Part shown: piece after piece, positions 1,759 to 38,499 of the stretch
Layout: each line of letters begins with the position of its first letter
How positions within the stretch are numbered: the first letter of the stretch is position 1
Assembly: GCA_016929295.1 (NCBI GenBank)
Contig: JAFGJB010000061.1
Span: forward strand, 1-64,000
DNA: 64,000 bases
DNA from: Candidatus Zhuqueibacterota bacterium
GTDB taxonomy: Bacteria > Zhuqueibacterota > Zhuqueibacteria > Residuimicrobiales > Krinioviventaceae
Direction: 5' to 3'
Notes under the pieces: model-generated
Told to the model about the DNA's origin: nothing
The model's input: only the letters and a program-made list of their open reading frames with translations
The model's database searches: none
Translations under genes and position numbers: made by a program

Positions 1759-1955
1759 CTTGGCGCGGCCTTTGGCCGCAAGCAAAAATATCCAAACCAC
1801 CGAGTGCACCGAGACCACCGAGAAAATAAATGAAACAAAACTGTACATCTTTGTAAAAAAACGTCTGTTTTTCCTCTGTGGCCCTCGGCGTTCTCGGTGG
1901 TTATATTATTTTTCTTCTATGCTCAAAAACTTTTAAAAAAGCAATGTTATAGAGC
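1759..1955 (+). repeat. Composite intergenic repeat copy 1 (module A 1759-1779, inverted-repeat module B 1794-1903, module C 1921-1955)
   Basis: CTTGGCGCGGCCTTTGGCCGC hairpin; arms AACCACCGAGTGCACCGAGACCACCGAG / TCTGTGGCCCTCGGCGTTCTCGGTGGTT; then CAAAAACTTTTAAAAAAGCAATGTTATAGAGCAG. Confidence 0.8.
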
Positions 1956-4345: not shown

Positions 4346-4540
4346 CTTGGCGCGGCCTTTGGCAGCAACCAAACAATGTAACAATTACGAAAAACTAAAC
4401 GCAAAGGCGCAAAGGGCCGCAGAGGTTCGCAGAGAAAAATGGGTGTGCTGCGATATCGTAAACCTCTCGAGATAAGCGAGGCAATGAAAAATCAATATCA
4501 TTTCTTAGTGAATCTTGGCGTTCTCCGCGTCTCTGCGTTG
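4346..4540 (+). repeat. Composite intergenic repeat copy 2 (module A 4346-4372; module B arms 4397-4440 and 4513-4540)
   Basis: CTTGGCGCGGCCTTTGGC...; AACGCAAAGGCGCAAAGGGCCGCAGAGGTTCGCAGAG vs reverse complement of TCTTGGCGTTCTCCGCGTCTCTGCGTTG. Confidence 0.8.
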
Positions 4541-4546
4541 CACGAT

Positions 4547-4650
4547 CGCCCAGGACATCCGTCCTGGGCGGACAATAGAGCGGGATATTTATCCCACTCG
4601 GACGAATGTCCGTGTACATCGCCCGTCCGGTACATCCCGCAAGGGACATG
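4547..4650. repeat. Array of four short hairpins
   Basis: CGCCCAGGAC-ATCC-GTCCTGGGCG (4547-4570), GGGATA-TT-TATCCC (4582-4595), CGGAC-GAAT-GTCCG (4599-4612), CATCCC-GCAA-GGGACATG (4633-4650). Confidence 0.75.
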
Positions 4651-4680
4651 GATATGCCGAACGATCTAGTCAATATCCTT

Positions 4681-4833
4681 ACAAAAACTTTTGCTAAAAA
4701 AACACAATGTTGCAGATTTGTAGTACAGAGATCGCCGAGAACCACCGAGGAAAAAAGAGCCTTTGGTTATAGTTATTATCTTTCAAGTAAAAAACTTGCT
4801 AATAAAACACGATGTTGTCACTTTATAGTACAG
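4681..4833 (+). repeat. Two copies of module C (4681-4728 and 4787-4833) flanking a module-B half arm (about 4727-4750)
   Basis: ACAAAAACTTTTGCTAAAAAAACACAATGTTGCAGATTTGTAGTACAG vs TAAAAAACTTGCTAATAAAACACGATGTTGTCACTTTATAGTACAG. Confidence 0.8.
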
Positions 4834-4960
4834 AAAGGCATTGTCACAAATATCTGACTACGAAATACTTTGAAGAACCAAAATTTATGCGCAACTGAGT
4901 AAATAAAGCCCCGCCATCGACCGCAGGCAGGGCTTGCATATTTTGAGCTAATAATGAACT

Positions 4961-24018: not shown

Positions 24019-24220
24019 AGCGACCCATCGTTGACAAAATTGCTGTTCGATAGTGAATTTGTAAATATCCGCCACAATCGCAAGCCTTTTTTTCTTAATA
24101 TAGGAGACCCCTACGAGTCCAAAATTCTCACGGTCTTGCGTTCTGAAGTGTCGTTGACGAAAAAGTTGCCGTGCGTCGGGCATTAAAATTGACGACCGCT
24201 CATTTTTGCTGATAAATCCG

Positions 24221-24386
24221 TAATACAAATCAGCGACATCTTGCTTTTTTAGCAAAGTTTTAAAGCCAACCGCAGAGGACGCCGAGATTCGCAGAGATAT
24301 TGTCCGATTTCGCTTCTTTCCCTCTGCGATTCTCGGCGCCCTCAGCGGTTTAGATGTTTTTGGGTGCGGCCAAAGGCCGCGCCAAG
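24221..24386 (-). repeat. Composite intergenic repeat copy 3 (module C 24221-24264, module B arms 24268-24296 and 24322-24351, module A 24366-24386)
   Basis: AACCGCAGAGGACGCCGAGATTCGCAGAG vs reverse complement AACCGCTGAGGGCGCCGAGAATCGCAGAG (26/29 identical by eye); GCGGCCAAAGGCCGCGCCAAG; inverted copy of the AAAACTTTTGCTAAAAAA...GATTTGTAGTA module. Confidence 0.85.
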
Positions 24387-38124: not shown

Positions 38125-38499
38125 TCATTCCCACTCGTCATCACCTTCCCAGGAGGGCGCGCCATCCAGCCAGTCTTCGTCTTCCGTCTCTTCCCAGTCG
38201 TCCTCGTCCTCTTCATCCTCTTCCTCTTCATCTTCTTCATCCTCTTCCTCTTCATCTTCTTCATCCTCGTCCTGCCAATACTCCTCTTCCCAATCTTCTT
38301 CCTCTTCGTGTTCGATGACCTCGTCTTCTTCGACATCCTCCTCTTCATCCCACTCGTCATCTTCGCTCACATCATCGAGCGTCTCGGCATCCGGCTCTTC
38401 TTCTTCAAAGATGCCAAACTCATCGGCATCTTCGTCTTCGCCCGTGCCGTATTCGTCATCGGCAAAATCGTCATCATCGATGAATGGATCTTTGCTCAT
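38125..38499 (-). CDS. Hyper-acidic low-complexity protein
   Basis: 124 aa, dominated by D/E (EEDEEDEDDWEETEDED); plausible start MSKDPFIDDDDFADDEYG; lies directly upstream of the STAS gene on the same strand. Confidence 0.6.
   Translation of the reverse strand: MSKDPFIDDDDFADDEYGTGEDEDADEFGIFEEEEPDAETLDDVSEDDEWDEEEDVEEDEVIEHEEEEDWEEEYWQDEDEEDEEEEDEEDEEEEDEEDEDDWEETEDEDWLDGAPSWEGDDEWE
38212..38268. repeat. 24-bp tandem repeat (2.4 copies) inside the acidic ORF
   Basis: TTCATCCTCTTCCTCTTCATCTTC x2, then TTCATCCTC. Confidence 0.8.

Follow-up and report, generated by a model that had tools for sequence, protein, structure and literature searches.

Modular intergenic repeats of a Zhuqueibacterota genome are probably non-autonomous members of a transposon family with a Rep_trans-like nicking enzyme as its mover

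To our knowledge, the transposons known to move by single-strand or rolling-circle routes all rely on HUH enzymes. A published review places Rep_trans proteins in plasmid and phage replication and in ICE transfer, and names HUH enzymes as those behind transposition; the IS91 and Helitron features used for comparison in this work come from the same source (PMC5714925). RepD carries R189-x-Y191-x-K193 and R212-x-E214 together with D46 and D142 (PMC4797284). Rep-Arvir, whose substrate is a hairpin origin and which also has a winged helix of MarR-like type, was placed with the Rep_trans initiators, which share the TBP fold, by its pattern of matches to TBP-fold and inovirus proteins (PMC13107129). 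Among dispersed palindromes, the two REP superfamilies are defined by a GTAG or CGTC tag next to a palindrome of 20-40 bp (PMC3733652).

The DNA analysed here is a stretch of 64,000 nucleotides (hereinafter the window) on contig C166 of a 4.34-Mb MAG of 367 contigs from candidate division KSB1. It contains three copies of a modular repeat. We conclude that these repeats are probably non-autonomous derivatives of a transposon family whose mover is a nicking enzyme of Rep_trans-like type.

Copies, ends and interiors of the repeat family

A preliminary description of the window reported an ordered cassette of three modules (A, B and C) and two recurrences of it. All three modules are found at the first location. 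The A-B-C order is also present at the other two (4346-4834 and copy 3), with the qualification that copy 3 runs in the opposite orientation to the other two (Table 1). Copy 2 contains a palindromic block between B and C and is followed by a second C-end relic, and its B heptamer (CGCAAAG/CGCAGAG) differs from that of copy 1 (CACCGAG). The dimensions given earlier for B in copy 1, arms of about 33 bp around a spacer of about 45, need correction: the arms are about 30 nt long, 77% complementary and 70 nt apart. Elsewhere in the window, positions 38183-38376 are of low complexity, with TCTTC/TCCTC triplets that probably encode an acidic repeat on the minus strand.

Table 1. Positions of the three repeat copies and their parts in the window
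Feature	Positions	Strand	Description
Copy 1	1759..1955	+	A-B-C, type I interior; right end truncated
Copy 1 module A, left end	1759..1788	+	hairpin GCGGCC-TTT-GGCCGC at 1765-1779, then AAGCAAAAA
Copy 1 B left arm	1798..1822	+	CACCGAG heptamer x3, 9-bp spacing
Copy 1 B right arm	1874..1899	-	inverted heptamers CACAGAG / CGCCGAG / CACCGAG
Copy 1 module C	1920..1953	+	degenerate, truncated; seen in the sequence, profile match absent
Copy 2, A to C	4346..4729	+	type III interior and type IV palindromic block
Copy 2 module A	4346..4375	+	module scan
Copy 2 B left arm	4400..4434	+	CGCAAAG, CGCAAAG, CGCAGAG, CGCAGAG; 8-10 bp spacing
Copy 2 B right arm	4514..4537	-	inverted heptamers
Copy 2 palindromic block CGCCCAGGACATCCGTCCTGGGCGGAC...	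4541..4670	+	elsewhere the interior of type IV elements
Copy 2 module C	4685..4729	+	final five bases ACAGA are the target side
Second C-end relic, unpaired, beyond copy 2	4791..4834	+	module scan
Copy 3, complete 170-bp type II element	24217..24386	-	between divergent recQ-like gene and sorting-tail protein gene
Copy 3 module A	24357..24386	-	module scan
Copy 3 module C, ending ACGGA	24217..24261	-	module scan

A genome-wide BLAST search with a 206-bp query from copy 1 matches 52 places, the best other copy being 94% identical (E=7e-81). The copies are thus no chance pattern, and the earlier view of the cassette as a defined element is right. The copy 3 family matches 90 places; its 170 bp are matched end to end, and ~18 copies are near full length with 84-96% identity. 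Because many contigs end within repeats, copies are undercounted.

A profile scan (E<=0.001) of 546 kb of the genome's contigs, largely picked for holding copies, found 57 A modules and 36 C modules. For 27 of the 57 A modules, C follows within 600 bp downstream on the same strand, against a random expectation of 0.94 and a maximum of 5 in 200 trials; C lies upstream of none of the 57. This pairing is far above what independent, random occurrence of the modules would give, and the association had rightly been singled out as the unusual part. Only 4 of the 57 A modules lie inside an ORF of at least 150 aa, compared with 73% of random positions; copies are therefore mostly, not exclusively, intergenic.

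Module A consists of a short GC hairpin and, after it, AACCAAA; module C is AT-rich, AAAACTTTGCTAAAAAAACACAATGTTGCAGATTTGTAGTACRGA. The interiors between them are unrelated to each other (CCGAG-type, CGCAAAG-type, palindromic CCGTCCTGGGCGG-type and CACGAAT-type), and the elements span 115 to ~580 bp in all. Other families of the class keep A and C and have B arms built of CACGGAT. Because A and C are kept while the interiors vary, these two modules form the dissimilar ends of short mobile elements and B is an interchangeable interior, so the emphasis earlier placed on B shifts to the ends. The ends do not form terminal inverted repeats: A and C are unlike, and the inverted B arms are internal. 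The left edge varies among lineages (C-TTGG, ACAG, CTGG, CCTAA), which leaves any exact cleavage rule provisional and counts against the explanation proposed below. One type IV element contains ~10 tandem CACACCCCGCAAGGGG repeats (L062 7242-7606).

Insertion site and heptamer arrays

The elements nest within each other (loci L044, L056 and L063). At L044, a type III element lies inside a type I element at GGCC^ACAGAGG; the flanks read GAGGATC / TTGGCGCGG ... GTAGT / ACAGAGGAAAAACAGACG, and the uninterrupted type I sequence is GAGGGCCACAGAGGAAAAACAGACG. The insertions at L056 and L063 lie at AATC^ACAGAGG and TTC^GCAGAGA, respectively. An empty-site comparison was tried for four sites and found an ortholog in the congener G001 for one only, that of a type I element with a transporter gene on either side, where empty GAATGAAAACAGGGAG corresponds to filled GAGTGAAAAC / CTGGCG ... 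GTAAT / ACAGAGAATG. Neither the nested insertions nor the G001 empty site show a target-site duplication, and ACRGA is present once, right of the element. Insertion thus separates the C from the A in C^ACRGA and duplicates no target sequence. Read on the bottom strand, the G051-type ends are TCTGT / ATTAC... and ...GCGCTGT / G, with CTGT preceding both; the hairpin side in the window genome reads GCCAA / G on that strand, and G345 has CCTAA on both sides.

The C^ACRGA target resembles the B heptamers (CACAGAG, CGCAGAG, CACGGAT), and elements therefore land in one another's B arms and form nested clusters. Both in the window and in the autonomous copies of G051 and G395 (described below), the heptamers start 39-55 nt from the left end with 8-10 bp spacing, about one helical turn, which fits a binding-site array. 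In short elements, a second, inverted heptamer array adjoins C. The B types (CCGAG, CGCAAAG, CACGGAT, CACGAAT) are swapped wholesale, both arms at once, which fits a common binder. Compensatory changes preserving the B stem, which the preliminary description had proposed to look for, are nearly absent: within type II, double changes occur in 2 of 41 pairs and the covariation term is about zero. B is therefore better read as an array of putative binding sites than as structural RNA. The A hairpin shows convincing covariation across lineages: in 19 hairpins that were picked by eye and whose stems were aligned by hand, 91 of 92 pairs form (GCGGC/GCCGC, GCAGC/GCTGC, GTGG/CCAC, CCGG/CCGG, CTGG/CCAG, GCGGG/CCCGC).

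B arms occur without A and C too. Specifically, a GxxExxY pseudogene in G039 is flanked by CACGGAT arms (L092), and an A-B-B'-C element lies within its left B-type arm (L092 1150-2000, G039:C38). Together with the landing of insertions in B arms, such free-standing arms would suit an origin of B as a separate, older dispersed repeat of the CGCAGAG/CACGGAT type, captured by A-C elements for its target sites. We regard this as unlikely, though with some weight left to it, since the heptamers keep a set distance from the left end and a set spacing both in the window and in the autonomous copies.

The linked gene and its predicted protein

In KSB1 relatives and in other phyla, an unannotated gene that encodes a ~500-aa protein has the hairpin-AACCAAA end upstream of it. 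A hairpin with AACCAAA or AACCCAA precedes the start codon of homologs in G008, G041, G038, G345 and G261, and is also found upstream in three G304 stubs and in a Paraburkholderia plasmid. The three G304 stubs have identical left ends at unrelated sites, one of them in a CRISPR array: at L205 (G304:C81), the left end of the stub directly follows the apparent last spacer. Homologs are present in 10 of 82 KSB1 genomes and, outside KSB1, in 5 genomes of one broader sample and 2 further genomes of a second. Searches of phage records and viral contigs returned no phage record and only 2 fragments on viral contigs.

Three genomes connect the gene to both ends. In G395, which is outside KSB1 and belongs to another phylum, a contiguous 1788-bp unit comprises A, four CACGAAT heptamers, a 521-aa gene and the C-like end ATACAATGTAGTAGTACGGA, followed by ACGGA. 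In G051, the tail of an ORF abuts C in two copies (contigs C70 and C39), and contig C56 carries A, four heptamers and the ORF start and ends in the ORF tail; this autonomous copy is pieced from contig ends with N gaps, which counts against it. In G064, A, heptamers, the gene start, a deletion, the last codons, C and ACGGA are contiguous. This internally deleted copy is an intermediate linking the autonomous and the short forms.

Two further results count against the explanation proposed below. Several subfamilies yielded no right end that could be compared with C, and no homolog was detected in the window genome or in the congener G001. With no detectable transposase gene in the window genome, the source there may be lost, unassembled or never present; the local elements may be relics, or may rely on a source that is missing from the assembly. 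Near some homologs, further repeats are present. In G345, ~10 tandem GTACCTAA units follow the right end, just past a homolog gene (L199, G345:C167), and the other copy ends in a single GTACCTAA unit (L204). About 150 bp past the right end of the autonomous G395 element lies an oppositely oriented A module with CACGAAT heptamers, in an A...A' arrangement (L211, G395:C57).

The ~500-aa protein matches no Pfam or NCBIfam family except for a weak C-terminal winged helix, and a profile search of solved-structure sequences likewise returned the winged helix only. None of the NCBI curated models names the protein, and plasmid records label its homologs ArsR-like or hypothetical. A single-sequence structure prediction (pLDDT 32) was rejected as useless; AlphaFold with an 11-sequence alignment gave a model with pLDDT 84.2 and pTM 0.80. 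A PDB structure search with this model found nothing at E<=0.001, and RepDE is absent among the 50 matches listed; TBP structures are among the best-ranked matches, not significant. In a viral structure library, the top matches are TBP-fold proteins with an inovirus protein close behind, all with low TM-scores. Rep-Arvir was assigned to the Rep_trans fold by this pattern (PMC13107129).

The homolog alignment shows conserved K314-x-Y316-x-K318, R324-x-E326, D19 and E242, which parallel the Y-x-K, R-x-E and acidic residues of RepD. D-R and Q-x-E motifs are also conserved, and K+2 and R vary in a few homologs. No conserved H-x-H or H-hydrophobic-H motif is present in five full-length homologs, and the DUF7845 profile gives no match. 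The fold class, the motif and the hairpin substrate together lead us to infer a Rep_trans-like protein; the lack of a match to Pfam Rep_trans (PF02486) at E<=10 counts against this assignment.

The annotation of plasmid homologs as ArsR-type regulators, the C-terminal winged helix and the plasmid location itself would also suit a replication initiator, or a regulator of the host or plasmid, that happens to lie near the ends, with something else as the mover. We consider this improbable: the gene is framed by A and C in G395 and, in truncated form, in G064, it abuts C in G051, the G304 stubs share left ends at unrelated sites, and the hairpin stem covaries by subfamily.

Two Y1 transposase genes are present in the window genome; on reading of their loci, neither is framed by A or C, and their hairpins are unrelated. 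One is an intact IS200-type gene with GCCCC/GGGGC hairpins near NADH dehydrogenase-like genes (L032, G000:C63). The intact gene, the GC hairpin of A, the intergenic position and the lack of target duplication could speak for a Y1 HUH transposase (RAYT) as the mover, with the repeats as REP/BIME-like palindromes or as miniature elements of IS200/IS605 type. Such an origin is very improbable, because the palindrome has no GTAG or CGTC tag beside it, the Y1 gene has hairpins of its own, and hairpin-AACCAAA lies repeatedly upstream of a different gene whose product has no conserved H-hydrophobic-H motif. A GxxExxY nuclease (PF13366) was also considered as the mover and rejected; the window genome has one such gene, in an unrelated setting. 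This gene lies between FGE-sulfatase-like segments with AAC-rich versus diversified copies, which resemble the template and variable regions of a diversity-generating retroelement (L033 1-1400, G000:C225). Finally, a structured RNA or terminator under selection from neighbouring genes, suggested by the strong hairpins and the intergenic bias, is hardly credible given an Rfam search without match, copies on both strands beside unrelated genes, nested insertions, interchangeable interiors, a B stem without covariation support and an orthologous empty site.

Proposed mechanism and comparison with known systems

The identity of the elements as transposons is well supported, and we infer the enzymatic mechanism. 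The autonomous form would consist of A, a heptamer array (as in G051, G395 and the G064 deletion copy) and a single ~500-aa gene ending just before C, with the right end C running into the target motif ACRGA. The C-terminal winged helix of the protein most likely binds the heptamers. A tyrosine in a predicted TBP-fold, Rep_trans-like active site would nick one of the two strands at both ends, hairpin and C. A single strand, cut out or copied, would then move by a single-strand or rolling-circle route into C^ACRGA, 5' of ACRGA, without target duplication.

On balance, we favour a wider reading, namely a bacterial transposon superfamily with TBP-fold, Rep_trans-like tyrosine nickases joined to a winged helix, present in KSB1, Burkholderiales plasmids, Actinobacteria and other lineages. 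It would explain at least some CGCAGAG/CACGGAT intergenic arrays as binding-site arrays and insertion targets. The transposon is probably previously unannotated, and its enzyme class is probably not known, as far as checked, to drive transposons; searches of the openly accessible literature matched neither a known transposon of this kind nor CGCAGAG-type repeats. If true, a second, unrelated nickase fold runs transposons, mirroring the two-fold split among replication initiators, and plasmid and phage initiators are linked to transposons a second time. Modular intergenic repeats found in many bacterial genomes would also gain a mover and a rationale, and annotators would have a name for the ~500-aa protein, whose present labels are hypothetical or ArsR-like.

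The elements are similar to MITEs in being short, multi-copy and non-autonomous, and differ from them in having no terminal inverted repeats between their ends and no target duplication. With IS200/IS605 and RAYT-REP systems they share a hairpin end, a one-sided short target motif, the lack of duplication and small non-autonomous copies. Unlike those systems, they have two dissimilar ends and heptamer arrays, no GTAG/CGTC tag, and a ~500-aa protein in place of a linked Y1 HUH transposase. Similarly, IS91, ISCR and Helitron transposons have asymmetric ends, a GC hairpin at one end, a short fixed target, no duplication and non-autonomous derivatives; their transposases are HUH enzymes, whereas the ~500-aa protein has no conserved HUH motif and another predicted fold.

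Compared with Rep_trans proteins (PF02486; pT181-type plasmids, filamentous phages, Tn916/ICEBs1 relaxases), the ~500-aa protein has no Pfam match, carries a C-terminal winged helix and is associated with small chromosomal transposons. Other than that, it is similar to them in its weak TBP-like fold matches, its putative hairpin substrate and its putative Y-x-K and R-x-E motifs with acidic residues. Rep-Arvir (DUF7845; PMC13107129), an archaeal replication endonuclease of viruses and plasmids, differs in its DUF7845 domain, which the ~500-aa protein does not match, and is similar in its hairpin origin and in the predicted domain order, with the TBP-fold catalytic domain first and the MarR-like winged helix after it.
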